This document shows positions 23,122-32,784 of a DNA stretch of 64,000 bases, piece after piece. This stretch comes from Nitrosospira sp. Nl5. Lineage in GTDB: Bacteria; Pseudomonadota; Gammaproteobacteria; Burkholderiales; Nitrosomonadaceae. Every line of letters begins with the position of its first letter. Within the stretch, counting starts at the first letter, position 1. The notes below the pieces were generated by a model. The model had not been told where the DNA came from, did no database searches, and saw nothing but the letters and a program-made list of their open reading frames with translations. The translations under genes and the position numbers were made by a program. Where the stretch lies: the NCBI RefSeq assembly GCF_900102495.1, contig NZ_FMVQ01000008.1:1-64000 (forward strand). The letters are read 5' to 3'.

Positions 23122-23973
23122 ATGCAGCAAATCACGATATTGCAAGCGCTAAGTCAAGCCCGTGGGGACATTGGCGATACCGATGCGCGGTTGTTATTAC
23201 AGACCGTACTTAATGTGAACCATGCCCATCTTATTGCTCATTCCGATCAGGAACTGGTTCCGGCAGAAGCGCAATACTTGCATCAGTTGATTGCACGGCG
23301 CGCACAAGGCGAGCCGGTTGCCTATCTTATGGGGAAACGCGAGTTTTACGGTTTGAGTTTTAAGGTAACACCCGCGGTACTCATTCCTCGCCCGGAAACC
23401 GAGCTCCTGGTGGATCTGGCGTTGGAGAGAATGCCACTGGATCATTCCAGCAAAATTCTTGACCTCGGGACCGGTAGCGGCGCCATCGCAATATCCATCG
23501 CCAACCATCGTCCACTCGCGAATATCACTGCGGTGGACGCGTCCGCCGATGCTGTGGCTGTGGCCAAAATAAACGCCAGGCAGCTTAATGTAAATAATAT
23601 CCGCATTATCGAGGGCGACTGGTTCGGCGGACTTGCAGGCAAAAGATTCGATCTCATCGTTTCCAATCCACCCTATATTGCCGGTAGCGATCCTCATCTT
23701 GCTCAAGGCGACTTGCGTTTCGAGCCACAGACGGCGTTGACAACGGGCGGCGATAGTCTCGACTGTATTCGCTGCATTATCGCTTCCGCCGCCGCGCATC
23801 TCGTTGCAGGCGGCACGTTGTTGCTGGAACATGGCTATGATCAGGCGGAAGCATGTAGGCAATTGCTGGATAAAGCGGGTTTTTGCGAGGTGTTTTCCCG
23901 CCCCGATCTGGCAGGCATCATGAGAGCCAGCGGCGGGGTTTGGGAGTTTCCTCGGGAAACTGCTAGAATATAA
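23122..23973 (+). CDS. prmC: release factor glutamine methyltransferase PrmC
   Basis: A 283-residue SAM-dependent enzyme that methylates the glutamine of the GGQ motif in release factors, raising termination efficiency. The SAM-binding site is ILDLGTGSGAIAIS, and the substrate-glutamine motif NPPY occurs in VSNPPYIAG. The N-terminal helical domain includes IPRPETELLVD. I choose the ATG giving MQQITILQAL; the frame upstream adds residues without likeness. It follows prfA, its substrate gene, by 85 bases, and grxD comes 99 bases later. Confidence 0.95.
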   Translation: MQQITILQALSQARGDIGDTDARLLLQTVLNVNHAHLIAHSDQELVPAEAQYLHQLIARRAQGEPVAYLMGKREFYGLSFKVTPAVLIPRPETELLVDLALERMPLDHSSKILDLGTGSGAIAISIANHRPLANITAVDASADAVAVAKINARQLNVNNIRIIEGDWFGGLAGKRFDLIVSNPPYIAGSDPHLAQGDLRFEPQTALTTGGDSLDCIRCIIASAAAHLVAGGTLLLEHGYDQAEACRQLLDKAGFCEVFSRPDLAGIMRASGGVWEFPRETARI

Positions 23974-24072
23974 AGTCGGATGTATATTGAAAGGACGAAT
24001 CAATCTCTTGAAAGCGGCTTAATTTTTCCACAAGCTGATTTTTTGGGTTGGTCAAATGACGAGGAGCCAGAC

Positions 24073-24381
24073 ATGAATACGCAAGAAACCATCAAGCAGC
24101 AAGTAACCGCTCATCCCGTGGTACTTTATATGAAAGGCACGCCGCAAGCCCCCCAGTGCGGTTTCTCCGCCCATGCGGTCAAAGTGCTCAATGCGTGTGG
24201 GGTAAGTGATATTTTCGCGGTGGATGTCCTCTCCGAACCGGAAATCCGGCAAGGCATCAAGGAGTACTCAAACTGGCCGACTATCCCCCAGCTCTACGTC
24301 AACGGCGAGTTTGTGGGCGGTTCTGACATCGTTACGGAAATGTACCAGAGCGGTGAGCTACAAAAGTTGCTTCAGAAGTGA
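24073..24381 (+). CDS. grxD: monothiol glutaredoxin Grx4 type
   Basis: A 102-residue CGFS-type glutaredoxin that carries or delivers [2Fe-2S] clusters. The active site PQCGFSAHAV holds a single cysteine, and VVLYMKGTP, WPTIPQLYVNGEFVGG and the GGSDI glutathione-binding loop are present. Length fits the family. The frame extends upstream, but the ATG beginning MNTQETIKQQ gives the normal N-terminus. It follows prmC in the same direction and is closed by a good terminator, so it is likely the end of the hemA operon. Confidence 0.95.
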   Translation: MNTQETIKQQVTAHPVVLYMKGTPQAPQCGFSAHAVKVLNACGVSDIFAVDVLSEPEIRQGIKEYSNWPTIPQLYVNGEFVGGSDIVTEMYQSGELQKLLQK

Positions 24382-24434
24382 ATGGAAGAGGTAAAGAGAT
24401 AGATTATCTGATGTTTGGTTGATGGAGAACCGAT

Positions 24435-24470
24435 AAGCCGGCCGATAAAGTAATAGCCGGCTTCTTTATT
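24435..24470 (+). terminator. rho-independent terminator after grxD
   Basis: AAGCCGGC and GCCGGCTT form an 8-bp stem with a 13-base loop, followed by CTTTATT. It lies 54 bases after the grxD stop and could also serve the convergent yqaA-type gene. Confidence 0.7.
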
Positions 24471-24494
24471 GGAAGAACGAACCGTGCAAGGGGA

Positions 24495-24917
24495 CTAAGG
24501 GGTGATAGCAGTCGCGATTGCCCAATAACGAATAAATTTTCCCGCACCCATGAATACCATCGCCGATATCCAGTTGATTCGAAGCCATCCCGCCGCAACA
24601 CACAGCAAATCGCCGATCAGCGGCACCCATGCCAGCAGTAGTATCGGACTTCCATAATTCCGCACCCACTCCAGGCCGCGCATATTGCCCCCGGCTTTTT
24701 TCAGAAGCGTTTTTTCATCGGGCAAAAAGCGCCCGATAACGTACGAACTCATGCCGCCCAGTACATTTCCTACTGAGGCGACTCCCAGGGCGGACCAATA
24801 AAGTTGGGGATAAGCTGTCAAAACGCCAAATAGTACTGCTTCCGAGCCGCCGGGGAGTAAGGTGGCGGCAAGAAAACTACTGGTAAAGAGCGCCAGCAGG
24901 CTCGCCTGCTCATCCAT
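24495..24917 (-). CDS. YqaA/DedA-family membrane protein
   Basis: A 140-residue inner-membrane protein of the SNARE-associated (DedA/VTT) superfamily, YqaA type. It has the family pattern FLAATLLPGGSEAVL at the N-terminus, then GNVLGGMSSYVIGRFLP, and the helix end LLLAWVPLIGDLLCVAAGW. Four or five hydrophobic segments are visible. Members are linked to lipid scrambling or proton-dependent transport, but the YqaA role is not established. I start at MDEQASLL; the longer frame adds 18 residues. It is convergent with grxD. Confidence 0.85.
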   Translation of the reverse strand: MDEQASLLALFTSSFLAATLLPGGSEAVLFGVLTAYPQLYWSALGVASVGNVLGGMSSYVIGRFLPDEKTLLKKAGGNMRGLEWVRNYGSPILLLAWVPLIGDLLCVAAGWLRINWISAMVFMGAGKFIRYWAIATAITP

Positions 24918-25075
24918 AAAAGCTTCTAAAAAACAAATGAGAGTCCCAGTGTAGCCGCGAACCTGCCGCAAGTGGAGGCGTTAACGGATTGTTGTTTTTA
25001 CGAGCGCGGTCATTAATCGTATGACCAGCATTTAATCATCAAAATTTGACTTAACGATATTATTTCGCGATGATA

Positions 25076-25850
25076 TGCTGACCGATTACCCATCTCTGTT
25101 CAAGAGGAAAATCATGACAACCACCGATGTATCACTGAAGCAAAAGGTCAACGCCATCATTGACGCGAAGCACCTGCTCAAGCATCCTTTTTATGTTGCC
25201 TGGACGGAAGGCAAGCTATCCAAAGACCAGTTACGGCATTATGCCGAACAATACTTTCATAATGTACTGGCCGAGCCGACATATTTAAGTGCGGTGCACT
25301 TCAATACGCCGCACCTTCATACGGAGACCAATAGCGGCGACATCAGCGTGCGCCAGGAAGTATTGAAGAATCTGATCAGCGAAGAGCATGGCGAAAAGAA
25401 CCATCCTGCCTTGTGGAAGACGTTTGCCCTGGCGCTGGGAGCAAGCGACAAAAGCCTGGCCGGCGCGACAGCTTTGCCTGCCACCGCCAGGCTGGTATCG
25501 ACGTTTCGGGACATCTGCCTGAACCAGCCATTCTATGCGGGTCTTGCGGCAATGCACGCATTTGAATCGCAAGTACCGGCGGTTGCTGCCGTAAAGATTG
25601 ACGGTCTGGCCAGGTTCTATGGAATGAACGACCCGGACAGTTACGAATTCTTTACCGTGCACCAGGAAGCCGACGTGCATCACTCGCAGGCGGAATGGGC
25701 ATTGATTGCGCGTTTTGCCGATACTCCGGAGAAGCAGGCTGAAGTACTGGCGGCAACGACGCGGGCATGTGAAGCGCTGTGGGGGTTTCTCGATGGCATC
25801 TACGAGAATTATTGCTCAGACCTCGCCCGCGAGGATCAGGCCGCTGTTAC
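25076..25850 (+). repeat. direct repeat, copy 1 (775 bases, no differences)
   Basis: Compared base by base by eye, this block is identical to the block 4,220 bases downstream. It covers 38 bases of leader with the ribosome site and all but the last three codons plus stop of the CADD gene. It begins with TGCTGA, the same bases that form the last codon and stop of metE in copy 2. Confidence 0.95.
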
Positions 25851-25860
25851 TATGCACTAA
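25114..25860 (+). CDS. CADD/PqqC-family p-aminobenzoate synthase, copy 1
   Basis: A 248-residue protein of the PqqC/TenA-like helical fold, CADD subfamily (as in Chlamydia CT610 and a Nitrosomonas homologue shown to supply pABA). CADD makes p-aminobenzoate for folate from its own tyrosine, using a dinuclear Fe/Mn site. All key residues are visible: Tyr27, metal ligands Glu90, His97, Glu151, His183, Asp187 and His190, and Lys161 matching the catalytic CADD Lys152. AGAGGA lies 5 bases before the ATG. PqqC itself is less likely because no pqq genes are nearby and the CADD tyrosine and lysine are present. The neighbours are metR and metE, which use methyl-folate. It has its own upstream region, unlike copy 2. 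Confidence 0.88.
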   Translation: MTTTDVSLKQKVNAIIDAKHLLKHPFYVAWTEGKLSKDQLRHYAEQYFHNVLAEPTYLSAVHFNTPHLHTETNSGDISVRQEVLKNLISEEHGEKNHPALWKTFALALGASDKSLAGATALPATARLVSTFRDICLNQPFYAGLAAMHAFESQVPAVAAVKIDGLARFYGMNDPDSYEFFTVHQEADVHHSQAEWALIARFADTPEKQAEVLAATTRACEALWGFLDGIYENYCSDLAREDQAAVTMH

Positions 25861-25874
25861 CCGGTGTGTGTGTT

Positions 25875-25908
25875 CTGATGAGCAAACGATGCGTCGCTTG
25901 CTCATCAG
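25875..25908. terminator. hairpin between CADD copy 1 and metR
   Basis: CTGATGAGCAA and TTGCTCATCAG make a perfect 11-bp stem, extended inside by CGA/TCG around a TGCG loop after one mismatch. It lies 14 bases after the gene stop, between convergent genes, and may terminate both. Confidence 0.65.
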
Positions 25909-25969
25909 ATGATCTTTCAAGCTGGTATTTCCCCGTTTCTTTTTCTTCTCTCCTCTTTGCCGGAAGCTT

Positions 25970-26884
25970 TCATTCCAATGGCACAATTCCATCAAGCGTA
26001 GCAAAACAGGTATTTCTTGCAGTCGTCAAAAAATCGCGCAGATAAGGACGAGATGCCGTTTCCTTGAGCGTCGAGGCATACAGGTCGCTCCATAGTCCAT
26101 TGGAGCCGATGCGGCGGGCAATTACATAGTCGTGATCAACGTAGTTTTTGATCCCCCAGCTAGGGAGCGCTGCAACACCGCGGCGGCTGGCTACCAGTTG
26201 CAGAATGGCAACAGTCAGTTCCGCCGTACGTCGCTGTGGATGAATGCCGGCGGGCTTCAGCACGTTAAGAATCAGATCAATACGATCTTCCGGCACCGGA
26301 TAGGTAATAAGCGTCGTGTCGGCGAAGTCCGCAGCATGCAATATACGTTTTGTGCGCAAGGGATCCTCCGGTGCCAGCACTGCGAGAATCTCAAAACGAA
26401 ATAACGGATGGTGGATAATATCGCGCTGCCGTTTATGCTCCGATCCGATCACCACGTCCGCGCCTCCTTCCTCTAGAAGTTTGACGGGATCGCTATGGAA
26501 CCCGGAAACCAGATCCAGTTCCACGTCCGGCCAATGCAACCGGAACTCATCCATGAGTGGCATTAGCCAATCAAAACAAGTGTGGCATTCCAACGCGATG
26601 CGCAAACTCCCCGATGCTTGCTGCGAGACTTTAGCCAGATCCCGTTCGGTTGCCTGAATTTCCTGCAGCACTTTTTCGGCAAGTGACACCAAGTGTTTCC
26701 CGGCATCGGTGAGTTCGATGGATTGCCCCCTTCGTTGAATGACCGACAAACCATAATGGCTTTGCAAGCTCTTGATCTGGTGTGACAATGCGGACTGGGT
26801 AAGATGCACGCGCTTTGCAGCACGCGAGACGCTGCCGGTTTCGTGCAATGCTGCAAGGGTGCGGAGATGGCGCAGTTCAAGCAT
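25970..26884 (-). CDS. metR: LysR-type regulator MetR
   Basis: A 304-residue LysR-family activator of methionine genes that senses homocysteine in known members. The N-terminal winged helix holds the SALSHQIKSLQ recognition helix near residue 30. The effector domain has MetR-like wording: IALECHTCFDWLMPLM, LVLAPEDPL-type AVLAPEDPL, LITYPV, AALPSWGIK and GLWSDLYA. It is divergent from metE with a perfect MetR site between them, the arrangement known from enterobacteria. It likely represses itself and activates metE. Confidence 0.92.
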   Translation of the reverse strand: MLELRHLRTLAALHETGSVSRAAKRVHLTQSALSHQIKSLQSHYGLSVIQRRGQSIELTDAGKHLVSLAEKVLQEIQATERDLAKVSQQASGSLRIALECHTCFDWLMPLMDEFRLHWPDVELDLVSGFHSDPVKLLEEGGADVVIGSEHKRQRDIIHHPLFRFEILAVLAPEDPLRTKRILHAADFADTTLITYPVPEDRIDLILNVLKPAGIHPQRRTAELTVAILQLVASRRGVAALPSWGIKNYVDHDYVIARRIGSNGLWSDLYASTLKETASRPYLRDFLTTARNTCFATLDGIVPLE

Positions 26885-26889
26885 ATTTA

Positions 26890-26902
26890 TGAATTTAATT
26901 CA
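26890..26902. promoter_or_regulatory. MetR binding site
   Basis: TGAATTTAATTCA is a perfect TGAA-N5-TTCA match to the enterobacterial MetR consensus. It lies 5 bases before the metR start codon and about 60 bases upstream of the predicted metE transcription start, fitting activation of metE and autoregulation of metR. Confidence 0.75.
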
Positions 26903-26924
26903 TTGGTTTTTTATAAAATTTCAT

Positions 26925-26953
26925 TTGATTCATAGTGTAGTCTGCCACACAAT
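26925..26953 (+). promoter_or_regulatory. predicted metE promoter
   Basis: TTGATT and CACAAT stand 17 bases apart. Each matches four of six consensus bases, which fits a promoter that needs an activator. The ribosome site GGAGG follows close to the metE start. Confidence 0.45.
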
Positions 26954-27000
26954 CTTTCCTTTTAGCAACTGAATCAGCAACTGAGAATAGCGGAGGACAC

Positions 27001-29301
27001 ATGGCATTGACACACAACCTGGGCTTCCCGCGCATCGGCGCGCGAAGAGAGCTGAAACTGGCGCTTGAGGCGTACTGGCGTGGCGATATCAACGAAGAGC
27101 GACTGCAAACTACGGCGGCGGAATTGCGGAAGCAACATTGGATTTTGCAACGCGAAGCAGGCATTGACCTGATCCCGGTTGGCGATTTCGCGCTTTACGA
27201 TCAAATGCTGAACATGACGGCACTGCTCGGTGCAGGGCCCGCAAGGTTTAACGCAGACAGTGGTGAAGTTGACCTGGATTTGTATTTTGCCATGGCGCGT
27301 GGAACTCCAGGTCAGCCGGCGATGGAGATGACCAAATGGTTCGATACCAACTATCACTACATCGTCCCGGAATTCGACGCGCGCACCGAATTCCGTATCG
27401 CTTCGTCGCAGCTCTTCCGGGAAGTAGCCGAAGCCAAGGCGCTTGGTATTTCACCCAAGGTTGTACTGATCGGGCCGCTTACCTATTTATATCTCGGTAA
27501 AGAGACGGAGCCGGGTTTCAATCGTCTTGACTTGTTAACGCGCCTGTTGCCCGTTTATCGCGAGATTTTGGCCCGGCTCGCATCCCTTGGCGTGGAATGG
27601 GTACAAATCGACGAACCATTGCTGGCGCTTGATCTGGATAACGACTGGCTCAGCAGGCTGGATCACGCCTATGCTGCCCTGGATGCAACTGGAACGAAAC
27701 GGCCGAAATTGCTGCTGGCGACGTATTTTGAAGCGGTGGATAACCATGCCGCACGATTGAAAAAACTGCCGGTGGACGGTTTGCATATTGATTTATGCCG
27801 CGCACCGCATCAGCTCGATATTTTTCTCGACAATTATCCGGCTGGCAAAGTGCTGTCATTGGGTGTCATTGATGGGCGCAACGTATGGCGCGCAGACCTG
27901 GCGCAGGCGTTCTCCATTCTGTCGCGAGCACAGGCAATCGTGGGTGAAAGATTGTGGATTGCGCCAAGCTGTTCGCTTTTGCATTGTCCGGTGGATCTTG
28001 AACTGGAAACCCGGCTGGATGGCGAGATTAAAAACTGGCTCGCATTTTCCGCACAGAAATTGAAGGAAGTATCGACCCTCGGACGCGGCCTGGACCAGGG
28101 GGAAAATGCGATACGGGAAAGTCTGGATGCCGCTGCCGAGGCACGACAAGAGCGCCGCGACTCACCACGCATACACAGCCCTGTGATGCAGGAGCGCTTG
28201 CAAAGCCTGACGCATAACGATAGCGGGCGTGCCAGTCCATTCCCGGTGCGGCAGTTACTGCAACGGCGGCGGTTTCAACTTCCCCTTTTGCCGACTACGA
28301 CCATCGGCTCGTTTCCTCAGACGCCGGAGATTCGCCAAGCGCGCGCCGCGTTCAGGAAAGGAGAGCTCGGTAACCTGCAGTATCTGGAAGCGATGCGCAA
28401 CGAAATCCGGTTTGCGATAAAAAAACAGGAGGAGATCGGGTTGGACGTACTCGTGCATGGAGAACCCGAGCGCAACGACATGGTGGAATATTTCGGCGAG
28501 CAATTGTGGGGCTATGCCTTTACCGAGAATGGATGGGTACAAAGCTATGGTTCCCGTTGCGTAAAGCCGCCGATTCTCTATGGCGATATCTATCGTCCCG
28601 AACCCATGACTGTCGACTGGATTCAATATGCGCAAAGTCAGACCGAGAAGCCGGTGAAGGGGATGTTGACCGGACCTATAACCATGCTGATGTGGTCATT
28701 TGTGCGTGACGATCAAGCGCGTTCCCTCACGGCGTTGCAACTTGCGCTTGCTATCCGCGATGAAGTCGCCGATCTGGAGCGGGCCGGCATTGGTATTATT
28801 CAGATAGATGAGCCGGCGTTTCGGGAAGGACTGCCGCTCAAAAAGGCCGACTGGAACGGATATTTCCAGTGGGCGGTGGAAGCCTTCCGGGTAGCCAGCT
28901 CCGGGGTAAAAGACGATACGCAGATACATACCCACATGTGTTACTCTGAATTTAACGATATCCTGCCAGCGATCGCCGATATGGGAGCGGATGTCATTAC
29001 GATTGAAACTTCGCGCTCACGGATGGAGTTGCTGGACGGATTCGGTCATTTCAAATATCCCAATGAAATCGGACCGGGGGTATACGATATTCATTCGCCA
29101 CGGATTCCGGATACCGCGGAAATGCTCGAATTACTGGAGAAAGCCTGCCTGGTGATCAATCCAAAACAGCTATGGGTTAACCCCGATTGTGGCTTGAAGA
29201 CGCGGGGCTGGACAGAAACTGTCACGGCGTTGGAGCGCATGGTGGAAGCTGCGCGACTGTTGCGTGCCCGCCTGGATATTTCGCAAGCTGAAACCTGCTG
29301 A
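27001..29301 (+). CDS. metE: cobalamin-independent methionine synthase
   Basis: A 766-residue zinc enzyme that transfers the methyl group of 5-methyl-tetrahydrofolate polyglutamate to homocysteine. The zinc ligands expected from E. coli MetE are all found: His645 and Cys647 in HTHMC, Glu669 in TIETSRS, and Cys730 in NPDCGLKTR. The N-terminal half is the duplicated barrel with [18 protein letters not shown] precedes the ATG. The CADD copy 2 start lies 32 bases after its stop, so the two are probably one transcript that couples pABA supply for folate with a heavy folate user. Confidence 0.97.
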
Positions 29302-30070
29302 CCGATTACCCATCTCTGTTCAAGAGGAAAATCATGACAACCACCGATGTATCACTGAAGCAAAAGGTCAACGCCATCATTGACGCGAAGCACCTGCTCA
29401 AGCATCCTTTTTATGTTGCCTGGACGGAAGGCAAGCTATCCAAAGACCAGTTACGGCATTATGCCGAACAATACTTTCATAATGTACTGGCCGAGCCGAC
29501 ATATTTAAGTGCGGTGCACTTCAATACGCCGCACCTTCATACGGAGACCAATAGCGGCGACATCAGCGTGCGCCAGGAAGTATTGAAGAATCTGATCAGC
29601 GAAGAGCATGGCGAAAAGAACCATCCTGCCTTGTGGAAGACGTTTGCCCTGGCGCTGGGAGCAAGCGACAAAAGCCTGGCCGGCGCGACAGCTTTGCCTG
29701 CCACCGCCAGGCTGGTATCGACGTTTCGGGACATCTGCCTGAACCAGCCATTCTATGCGGGTCTTGCGGCAATGCACGCATTTGAATCGCAAGTACCGGC
29801 GGTTGCTGCCGTAAAGATTGACGGTCTGGCCAGGTTCTATGGAATGAACGACCCGGACAGTTACGAATTCTTTACCGTGCACCAGGAAGCCGACGTGCAT
29901 CACTCGCAGGCGGAATGGGCATTGATTGCGCGTTTTGCCGATACTCCGGAGAAGCAGGCTGAAGTACTGGCGGCAACGACGCGGGCATGTGAAGCGCTGT
30001 GGGGGTTTCTCGATGGCATCTACGAGAATTATTGCTCAGACCTCGCCCGCGAGGATCAGGCCGCTGTTAC
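29296..30070 (+). repeat. direct repeat, copy 2 (775 bases, no differences)
   Basis: Identical to the block 4,220 bases upstream. Its first six bases TGCTGA are the last codon (Cys) and stop of metE. Beyond the 3' edge the last codons still look related (ACTATGCACTAA against ACGGTTCACTGA), so the paralogues continue past the identical block. Confidence 0.95.
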
Positions 30071-30080
30071 GGTTCACTGA
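29334..30080 (+). CDS. CADD/PqqC-family p-aminobenzoate synthase, copy 2
   Basis: A 248-residue protein differing from copy 1 only at residue 247 (Val for Met). Tyr27, Lys161 and the six metal ligands (Glu90, His97, Glu151, His183, Asp187, His190) are all present, so both copies should be active. It follows metE by 32 bases, most of them inside the repeated block, and is likely expressed under MetR control with metE. Copy 1 lacks this link. In the family the protein itself is thought to supply the tyrosine, so output would follow the amount of protein made; a second copy could raise folate capacity. The pABA role is known for relatives and inferred here. Confidence 0.88.
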   Translation: MTTTDVSLKQKVNAIIDAKHLLKHPFYVAWTEGKLSKDQLRHYAEQYFHNVLAEPTYLSAVHFNTPHLHTETNSGDISVRQEVLKNLISEEHGEKNHPALWKTFALALGASDKSLAGATALPATARLVSTFRDICLNQPFYAGLAAMHAFESQVPAVAAVKIDGLARFYGMNDPDSYEFFTVHQEADVHHSQAEWALIARFADTPEKQAEVLAATTRACEALWGFLDGIYENYCSDLAREDQAAVTVH

Positions 30081-30141
30081 GTATTCGCTTGGCATGAATT
30101 TGACCATTGCTATGGAGACGTTACTATCTCGCATGAGCTGT

Positions 30142-32784
30142 TTAGCCCGTTGTCTGCAATGCGTTTAACAACTCTGTTTCCAAGTGGAGCAGCGTTCTCG
30201 TTTGCTTGAGTATTTCTCCCGTGACCAGAAATGTATCCTCGGCACGTTCGCCCAGGGTGCTTATCCTGGCACTGTGAACGTTTACGCCGAAACGCACCAG
30301 TACCTGCGCAATGCGGGACAGCAATCCTGGCTGATCGCCGGCAACAATTGACAGAACATGATATGTACCTTTTTCATCGGGTTCGATATCGACTTCCGGG
30401 GTAATCGGAAAATGCTTGAGATGACGGCTGACCCGCCCCTGTAGCGGTGGTTTTAGGGGCACTTGCTGTTCCAGTTGCTGTGTCAGTTCATGCTCTACAA
30501 GATTGATCGCGTCGCGGTGATGCTCGACAACGTTGAAAGGGTTCAGCACCAGGAAGCTATCGAGCGCGTAGCCGTCGCCGGTAGTATGAATTTTGGCTTC
30601 GACGATGTTGTAATCCATGCCGTCGAAGAAACCGCAAATACGCGCGAACAGATCCTTTTGATCGGGAGCGTAGACCAGTACCTGAATGCCTGTTCCAGCC
30701 GGTGCGATGCGCGCTTTTACCACTGGCGTCGGTGACTTTACCCGGTGGCTCAAATGACGCGTATGCCAGGCGATTTCCTGTGGCTCATGCAGCAGCAGAT
30801 AAGCGGGATCGAGCGACGACCAGAGCTGTTCATGGGCATCGGGGGGAATACCAGCGCGTTGCAGCAATTCCAGCGCCTTGTTTCTGTGATTTTCCAGCAT
30901 ATCGTCCGCATGAATTGGCGCGCCGCATAGATACCCCCGCGTTGTCCAGAACAAATCTTCCAGCAGCTTGCCCTTCCATGCATTCCATACTTTTGGACTG
31001 GTGCCTCGAATATCAGCGACGGTGAGCAGGTAAAGCGCAATAAGCCGACGCTCGTTTCCGATACGCGAGGAAAATTCTCTAATTACGTCCGCATCGGATA
31101 TATCTTTCTTTTGTGCCGTGATCGACATTACCAAATGATTCTCCACCAGCCACGCAACCAGTTCCCTATCTGCCGGTAACATTGCATGTTGCCGGCAGAA
31201 GTGCGTCGCGTCTGCTTTACCAAGCCTCGAATGGTCCCCTTTGCGTCCTTTGGCAATATCGTGGAAAAGGCCTGCGAGATAGAGCACTTCAGGGCGTTCG
31301 AAGTCACCCATGAGCCGACTGCATAATGGATACTCGTGAGCATATTCCGGCGCCATGAAGCGGCGCAGATTTCTCACTACCATCAGGATATGTTCATCCA
31401 CTGTATAAACATGGAACAGGTCATGTTGCATCTGGCCGACGATGCGCCCGAAAGCCGGGATATAGCGCCCCAGGATGCCGTAGCGGTTCATCAAGCGCAG
31501 TTCGCGGGTAAGCCCGCGTGGCTGACGCAGGATTTTCATGAACAATGCATGATTGCGCGGATTGTGCCGGAACTTCGCGTTGATTTGCGGCGTGGCCCGC
31601 CACATCGCTCTCAGAGTCCCTGCACTACGGGCCTTTAATTCAGGGTGCTGCTGTAGCAGCAGCGTACTTTCCAGAATCGCGCTAGGGTTCCGCCTGAAAA
31701 TGTTTTCGTCGCTTGCTTCCAGCAATTCCCCGCGCTTCTGAAATCGCTCGTTGATAGCAACCGGAGCCGCCATCTTGCCAGGAAAAATTTCCGCACGGAG
31801 TGTGAGTAACAAGATGGTGTTAATCTGTGTCACCGCCTTGGCGGCGCGGTAGTAGCGCTGCATCAGCATTTCACCGGCAAGACGCGGTGGTTTGCCGGAG
31901 ATATTGAACTCTTCGGCGAGGGAAGTCTGATAATCGAATAGCAGCCGATCTTCACGTCTTCCTGCGAGATAGTGCAGCCCGATGCGCAGGTCTTGCAGGA
32001 TGGTTTGATGACGCTGTGCGAGGCGGGCTTCCTGCCGAGTGATGAATCCACCCTTGGCGAGCCCTGACCAGGATTTTCCCAGGCCGGCAGCGCGGCTCAC
32101 CCACAGGATATTCTGCAAATCTCGAAGACCACCGGGGCTTTCCTTCAAGTTGGGCTCAAGATTGTAGGTGGCATCATGATATCGGCCGTGACGCTGTTGT
32201 TGCTCCAGTTGCTTGGCAATGAAAAATGCACGAGGCTCTAGCGCAGCCCGCATGGCATGGGAGAATTCGCAGAACAATTGACGGTGTCCCGCAAGTTGAC
32301 GCGCTTCCAGCAGACTGGTTTGCACCGTAATATCCTTCTCCGCCTCTTCCGCACATTCGGCGAGTGTACGGACGCTGTGCCCAACCTCCAGCCCAATATC
32401 CCACAGCGATCCTACCCAGTGTTCCAGACGGGTTTTGACAGGATCGTCTACTGCATCGGCACCGCTTTTGCCACCAGGAAGGAGTACCAGCAGATCAATA
32501 TCGGAATAAGGAAAAAGCTGTCCGCGCCCGTAGCCCCCTACCGCCAGTAACGCGATGGAATTCGGCATTGCCATTTCCCGCCACACTTGGCGCAGGATGG
32601 CATCCACGAGCTCACAATGGTCACGCAGCAAGGCTGCGCCATTTTTATTCCTGCAATAGCGTTGATGTAACAACTCGCGCCCTTGAAGCAGGGCCGTCTT
32701 GCCCGTTTCGGGGCTAAACCTGAATCCGGCGGTTGATCGCCCATCTCTCCGGTTAACGCCATGGCTCGTAGAAACCCTTTGCAT
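30142..32784 (-). CDS. glnD: [protein-PII] uridylyltransferase/uridylyl-removing enzyme
   Basis: An 880-residue nitrogen sensor that uridylylates PII proteins when glutamine is low and removes UMP when it is high. Domains in order: nucleotidyltransferase with VGGYGRGQLFPYSDIDLLVL near residues 82-101, a linker, the HD domain with GLFHDIAKGRKGDHS near residue 505, and two C-terminal ACT domains with VYAPDQKDLFARICGFF and VAGDQPGLLSRIAQVLV that bind glutamine. AGGAAA precedes the ATG by about 10 bases. The first 25 or so residues are partly encoded by a dispersed repeat and look unlike GlnD. It follows map in the same direction, as is common. Confidence 0.96.
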   Translation of the reverse strand: MQRVSTSHGVNRRDGRSTAGFRFSPETGKTALLQGRELLHQRYCRNKNGAALLRDHCELVDAILRQVWREMAMPNSIALLAVGGYGRGQLFPYSDIDLLVLLPGGKSGADAVDDPVKTRLEHWVGSLWDIGLEVGHSVRTLAECAEEAEKDITVQTSLLEARQLAGHRQLFCEFSHAMRAALEPRAFFIAKQLEQQQRHGRYHDATYNLEPNLKESPGGLRDLQNILWVSRAAGLGKSWSGLAKGGFITRQEARLAQRHQTILQDLRIGLHYLAGRREDRLLFDYQTSLAEEFNISGKPPRLAGEMLMQRYYRAAKAVTQINTILLLTLRAEIFPGKMAAPVAINERFQKRGELLEASDENIFRRNPSAILESTLLLQQHPELKARSAGTLRAMWRATPQINAKFRHNPRNHALFMKILRQPRGLTRELRLMNRYGILGRYIPAFGRIVGQMQHDLFHVYTVDEHILMVVRNLRRFMAPEYAHEYPLCSRLMGDFERPEVLYLAGLFHDIAKGRKGDHSRLGKADATHFCRQHAMLPADRELVAWLVENHLVMSITAQKKDISDADVIREFSSRIGNERRLIALYLLTVADIRGTSPKVWNAWKGKLLEDLFWTTRGYLCGAPIHADDMLENHRNKALELLQRAGIPPDAHEQLWSSLDPAYLLLHEPQEIAWHTRHLSHRVKSPTPVVKARIAPAGTGIQVLVYAPDQKDLFARICGFFDGMDYNIVEAKIHTTGDGYALDSFLVLNPFNVVEHHRDAINLVEHELTQQLEQQVPLKPPLQGRVSRHLKHFPITPEVDIEPDEKGTYHVLSIVAGDQPGLLSRIAQVLVRFGVNVHSARISTLGERAEDTFLVTGEILKQTRTLLHLETELLNALQTTG

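Follow-up and report, generated by a model that had tools for sequence, protein, structure and literature searches.

We analysed a 64,000-nt stretch of the ammonia oxidiser Nitrosospira sp. Nl5 (the window), which belongs to a 3.03 Mb draft genome of 34 contigs (G000). Here, two genes of the CADD-type p-aminobenzoate (pABA) synthase family flank the divergent genes metR and metE. The locus contains the following features.

25046..25074, + strand: sigma-70-like promoter of copy 1 (TTGACT, 17 nt, GATGAT), a motif conserved before CADD
25076..25850, + strand: repeat block, copy 1 (38-base leader and most of the open reading frame, ORF), 775/775 identity with the copy 2 block
25114..25860, + strand: CADD-family pABA synthase gene, copy 1, 248 aa from a conserved ATG
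25874..25909, + strand: strong hairpin after copy 1, terminator-like, with no clear T run (fold of 25861–25930)
25970..26884, − strand: metR, LysR-type regulator (Pfam HTH_1 and LysR_substrate)
26889..26903, no strand: MetR box ATGAATTTAATTCAT, exact ATGAA-N5-TTCAT, between divergent metR and metE
27001..29301, + strand: metE, cobalamin-independent methionine synthase (TIGR01371, 1080.9 bits, cut-off 929.95)
29296..30070, + strand: repeat block, copy 2, 775/775 identity with the copy 1 block
29334..30080, + strand: CADD-family pABA synthase gene, copy 2 (TIGR04305, 296.6 bits), 32 nt behind metE

In an exact string comparison, the two blocks agree at all 775 bases, and the first base outside differs on both sides. 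This bears out an earlier note on this DNA, which had described a 775-base direct repeat without differences around divergent metR and metE; the 4,220 bases given there are the distance from start to start. A chance repeat is ruled out by 775 identical bases. Each block comprises the 38-base leader and the CADD ORF without its last codons, and the leader of the copy 2 block provides the stop codon of metE (29299–29301). The note also took the two synthases to be identical. Their family assignment stands, but the proteins agree at 247 of 248 residues, with Met or Val at residue 247, just beyond the block. A DNA search and a family-model search of the entire G000 assembly revealed no CADD copy beyond these two.

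Perfect identity in a 34-contig draft is the one sign pointing to an assembly artefact or a single-copy collapse, and the earlier note had named an assembly error as grounds for giving up its reading. We regard such an artefact as extremely improbable, because the 3′ ends of the copies differ and the relatives G096 (one contig, 3.26 Mb) and G100 (a contig of 3.47 Mb) show the same layout. Both copies also lie on one contig in G000.

The CADD protein and the other pABA genes

The CADD protein scores 296.6 bits against TIGR04305 (CADD-type pABA synthase), for which the curated cut-off is 200. We aligned it with the protein of Nitrosomonas europaea ATCC 25978, which serves as a stand-in for NE1434 in our residue comparisons. 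The eight residues listed in the earlier note (Tyr27, Glu90, His97, Glu151, Lys161, His183, Asp187, and His190) are all present and are the same in the two proteins. Tyr27 and Lys161 align with Tyr25 and Lys159 of the N. europaea protein, and Phe150 and Phe179 align with Phe148 and Phe177. We take Glu90, His97, Glu151, His183, Asp187, and His190 to be the metal ligands.

NE1434 (NePabS) of N. europaea is of the same family (TIGR04305) and has in common with the window protein the Tyr and Lys that are spent. According to the accessible part of the paper on this enzyme, NE1434 synthesizes pABA in a self-sacrificing, one-turnover reaction, in which the Tyr and Lys are consumed, and complements E. 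coli lacking pabABC (PMC11965152). The self-consuming synthesis, which the earlier note gave as a family trait, thus holds for this relative, and by analogy we infer one-use chemistry for the window protein. The same part of the paper describes NE1434 as an Fe/Fe enzyme with Phe at metal-site positions 148 and 177, where the window CADD likewise has Phe, and gives glyA as a neighbour gene (PMC11965152). CT610, the CADD of Chlamydia trachomatis, also belongs to the family of the window protein (PDB 1rcw, E 7.4e-47). As far as that part of the paper covers it, CT610 is self-sacrificing as well but is an Mn/Fe enzyme with two Tyr where the window protein has Phe, and its gene is clustered with folate genes, not with metE (PMC11965152). 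The nearest solved chain to the window CADD is PDB 9pj4, a 4-aminobenzoate synthase (E 3.5e-135, 246 residues). In N. europaea ATCC 25978, the CADD gene also precedes metR-metE; however, it is a single copy within the 20.7-kb locus L146, in contrast to the two flanking copies of the window. The available text of the NE1434 paper gave no match for metE, methionine synthase, copies, or duplicat- (PMC11965152).

The earlier note had tied its reading to the absence of pabB and pabC, and a profile search agrees with it: no PabC above cut-off was found in G000 and no PabB above cut-off in any of the 23 genomes of the genus, PabA not having been searched for. Each of the 23 has exactly one PabB-like match below the cut-off, which in G000 is TrpE (573 bits, cut-off 517.7). 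The two PabC-like matches of G000 are IlvE and a D-amino-acid-transaminase-like protein, which falls under its own cut-offs and may have a lyase side activity. FolP, which uses pABA, scores above its cut-off in all 23 genomes, with a single such copy in 22. Judging from this gene content, the CADD synthase appears to be the sole pABA source of Nitrosospira sp. Nl5.

Eight genomes of the family, most of them incomplete drafts, have no CADD match; PabB is above cut-off in one of them (G058) and not in the other seven. G058 is a metagenome-assembled genome (MAG), in which a 710-aa fused PabA-PabB-like protein is encoded at L161, 8284–10416 (PabB 343.8 bits, above cut-off). The fused gene is on the contig of the G058 hemA-VTT locus, next to prephenate-dehydrogenase-like and nonribosomal-peptide-synthetase-like ORFs, whose names come from reading and not from a search.

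Distribution of the flanking pair and likeness of its copies

Of 125 Nitrosomonadaceae genomes, 117 contain TIGR04305, and in 11 of these it occurs at more than one place or fragment. An even sample of 399 genomes drawn from the order has it in 15 at E ≤ 1e-30, namely 13 Nitrosomonadaceae (G000 included) and two genomes of one other family; named neighbours are Nitrosospira, Nitrosovibrio, and Nitrosomonas. CADD lies less than 5 kb from metE in 86 of the 98 Nitrosomonadaceae genomes with matches for both, among them G010 and G011, with a broken metE near CADD. At least two MetE clades are found near CADD, the Nitrosospira/N. europaea type and a type approximately 55% identical in other Nitrosomonas. 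The gene orders vary within Nitrosomonadaceae (CADD-metR-metE, metR-metE-CADD, or both). In the two genomes of the other family, CADD has no window-metE match inside about 7 kb, and when 13 window genes were run by tblastn against the cyanobacterial L155, L156, and L158, CADD alone matched. Viral carriage found no support, as six peptide patterns matched no stretch of a viral collection.

We notice some variation of metE itself. In G010 (L169), the metE near CADD is broken by stops, and a stop-free metE lies elsewhere in the genome. G105, G106, and G111 carry a second metE elsewhere, which in G106 is of the distant type (57% identical, L163), and the metE at the CADD locus of G105 contains one internal stop.

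The order VTT-CADD-metR-metE-CADD-glnD is found in G000, G096, and G100, and G103 and G107 show it by fragments at contig ends, so that five of the 23 genomes of the genus have the flanking pair. Two of nine genomes of the sister genus have it as well, G121 across two contigs and G119 in fragments. The arrangement, which the earlier note suggested looking for in relatives, thus recurs in two genera, with three of the seven flanking-pair genomes (G103, G107, and G119) known from contig-end fragments. In each full-length pair (G000, G096, G100, and G121), both CADD reading frames are open. A recent simple duplication in the Nl5 strain only is unlikely, given the same position in two genera and the divergence of the 3′ ends; the pair predates the species. 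Our literature search, to which most subscription papers were out of reach, found no description of the flanking arrangement in print. While the enzyme itself is known, the count of CADD-metE neighbourhoods, the recurring flanking pair, the probable conversion, the promoter split, and the apparent recombination in G118 and G122 described below are new.

In N. halophila Nm1 (L121 / L058), the order is CADD-metR-CADD-metR fragment-metE, and the copies are 99.1% alike over 896 columns. This tandem CADD duplication is apparently separate from the flanking pair.

The copies of one genome resemble each other more than they resemble those of other genomes. Within each complete flanking pair (four genomes), third-position identity is 95–100%; between the copies of G000, G096, and G100, it is only 61–79%. 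In a tree of the gene bodies, the copies of the four full pairs cluster by genome and not by position, a grouping that bootstrap does not settle. The stretch of likeness has sharp boundaries. In G100, 19 of the 36 head bases differ between the copies and none of the next 694 (Fisher p 5e-28); in G107, 15 of 36 differ, followed by 0 of 117 up to the contig end, with 3 differences in 205 at the 3′ end. Likeness within genomes above that between genomes, together with such boundaries, is the pattern of concerted evolution. The unconverted copy-2 heads of G100 and G107 share 26 of 36 bases with each other and 17 and 21 of 36, respectively, with copy 1 of the same genome, in support of a single old copy 2.

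In G000, the block starts at 25076, separated by a single base from the −10 hexamer of copy 1, and the copied tract replaces the end of metE, reaching its stop codon. MetE ends in ETC here, in ETLPA in G100 and G107, in ETISA in G103, and in EALSA in G096. The transfer most likely ran from copy 1 to copy 2, because the block leader of G000 is the usual copy-1 leader in relatives. From this pattern, gene conversion seems to maintain the likeness of the copies; a new re-copying event in G000 retains some probability as an alternative. Conversion explains the identity better than selection for an identical protein, which fails to account for the agreement at third positions.

Upstream regions of copy 1 and copy 2

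The putative promoter of copy 1 matches the motif TT(G/T/C)ACTT-N10-18-GATGAT, which lies ahead of CADD in 82 of 103 distinct loci. A scan for such promoter sites found 3 against 4.3 expected by chance, and the promoter and terminator scan gave no more sites than shuffles, so the case for this promoter rests on its conservation. The motif is present in none of the eight CADD copies with a metE end less than 60 nt upstream, or none of nine when G119 is added, which fell into the 60–440 nt class through a short alignment and was re-placed by hand. When metE ends 60–440 nt upstream (mostly the other metE type), the motif is retained in 27 of 30 copies. It is missing from ten loci that have no metE directly upstream, three of them from cyanobacteria. 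Behind copy 1, the stretch 25861–25930 folds at −27.2 kcal/mol (z −3.56), and it is absent from the terminator scan list.

On the metE side, ATGAATTTAATTCAT is the single exact match to the MetR box in the 64-kb window. The available part of a comparative study gives ATGAA-N5-TTCAT as the MetR motif and homocysteine as the MetR signal, with metE and metR as the only MetR targets in most genomes of beta-proteobacteria (PMC4239095). The best NCBIfam match of the window regulator is PRK15421 MetR with 225 bits, under its cut-off of 382. Of 34 distinct metE starts of the Nitrosospira/N. europaea type (at least 63% identical), 33 have the 13-base MetR core upstream, as do 7 of 28 starts of the other type; the core occurs in 1.7% of random 250-base stretches.

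Copy 2 is without the conserved promoter, and no plus-strand terminator is listed in its 32-nt gap to metE. The metE stop codon even overlaps the CADD ATG (ATGA) in G096, G100, and G103. From this layout, we infer that metE and copy 2 are co-transcribed. The earlier note had placed copy 2 under the methionine control of the metE transcript. The position directly behind metE and the presence of a MetR box agree with this, and it is the box by itself that would speak for the control. No riboswitch or other known RNA was matched in Rfam up to E = 1 in 23900–31000.

Possible uses of the second copy

Taking these observations together, we favour, with reasonable though far from full confidence, a reading in which two intact self-consuming pABA synthase genes are maintained, copy 2 adds pABA in step with MetE, and conversion maintains the likeness of the two genes. 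The ancestral gene is probably copy 1, which has its own conserved promoter. The expression of copy 2 should follow that of MetE, since copy 2 sits behind metE, downstream of the MetR box. Conversion from copy 1 to copy 2 would homogenise the gene bodies, its tract running into the metE end, and would leave the promoters and outer ends different. Since no protein molecule can give more than one pABA, a second copy would raise the pABA supply alongside MetE, which needs methyl-folate. MetE is a slow and abundant enzyme, which ties up methyl-folate. A dosage benefit tied to MetE is, in our interpretation, the likeliest use of copy 2. In an unlikely, stricter form, the metE-CADD operon would be a stoichiometric dispenser, which provides about one folate precursor per MetE made and scales the folate pool to MetE, copy 1 serving the basal need. 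Yeast has several copies of THI5. This thiamin pyrimidine synthase is also single-turnover, as described in the accessible part of a report (PMC10848271), and offers a dosage analogy only, being unrelated to CADD in protein, pathway, and organism.

Several observations weigh against a MetE-linked dosage benefit. In 18 of the 23 genomes of the genus, one CADD copy is present and the metE match is retained; since these manage with one, the second copy is dispensable, which speaks against a strong need. No convincing copy-2 remnant was found behind metE in the 15 single-copy genomes checked among these 18, the best match being 18 codons on the reverse strand (E 0.044). The copies are not always alike: their whole-gene identity is 96.1% in G096 and 96.9% in G100, and they differ at 7 of 387 columns in G103 and 5 of 334 in G119. 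In G116, the two CADDs, which occupy different loci, are 86% alike and do not cluster with each other. In 12 of the 98 genomes, CADD and metE are not close: 10 have them on different contigs, and 2 have them on the same contig but distant from each other. metH is also present, so that the need for MetE is conditional. The codon adaptation of the two copies ranks 5th and 9th among 52 window genes, inside the range of ribosomal genes yet not extreme.

Copy 2 might instead be a neutral by-product of metR-metE arriving beside CADD, in which recombination through CADD left the direct repeat and passive conversion continues until loss, with no dosage benefit. We consider this possible but clearly less probable. 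In its favour are the single copy in 18 of 23 genomes, the 15 gaps examined, none of which holds a convincing remnant, and the conversion tract that overwrote the metE end. On the hemA-prfA tree (40 rows, 32 labelled), moreover, the two-copy label needs four changes, three of them forced by supported branches. Such neutrality is harder to reconcile with two-copy genomes with the same flanks in two genera, with open copies in all four full-length pairs, and with the CADD duplication of N. halophila, which is apparently a separate one.

The direct repeats could also act mainly as a recombination site that drops metR-metE, leaving CADD and its promoter while B12-independent methionine synthesis is lost; we judge this improbable as their main role. 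G117, G118, G122, and G123 have one CADD, and the metE search gave no match in them. G118 and G122 share the order VTT-CADD-glnD. Their 5′ flanks are 91% and 90% identical to copy 1 of G121, and their 3′ flanks are nearer its copy 2 (57% and 56%) than its copy 1 (34% and 48%), all rough percentages. By these junctions, the two loci look as if they were products of copy-copy recombination with metR-metE lost. On the hemA-prfA tree, G118 also groups with the two-copy genomes G119 and G121 (SH-aLRT 86), and metH remains. However, an ancestral CADD-glnD order without metR-metE yields the same junction, so the change may have run in either direction. All eight g2 genomes are without metE at the locus (no match in seven, on another contig in the eighth), and in G122 the two 3′ flank values lie close together. 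Both G118 (95% complete) and G122 (89% complete) are draft genomes. The loss could also be a consequence of the repeats and not their function.

With a single-use enzyme, the amount of product depends directly on gene dosage and promoter strength, and the natural one-copy, two-copy, and metE-less relatives allow the preferred dosage reading to be tested. The family-wide metE neighbourhood, including the second, distant MetE clade, ties the pABA route to one-carbon and methionine metabolism.

As for G116, it carries VTT-CADD-glnD and, at another locus (L063), metR-metE-CADD. The CADD of this second locus clusters with other species of the sister genus and not with the resident copy. The locus lies near RND-efflux-like genes, named by reading, and contamination of the MAG is possible.

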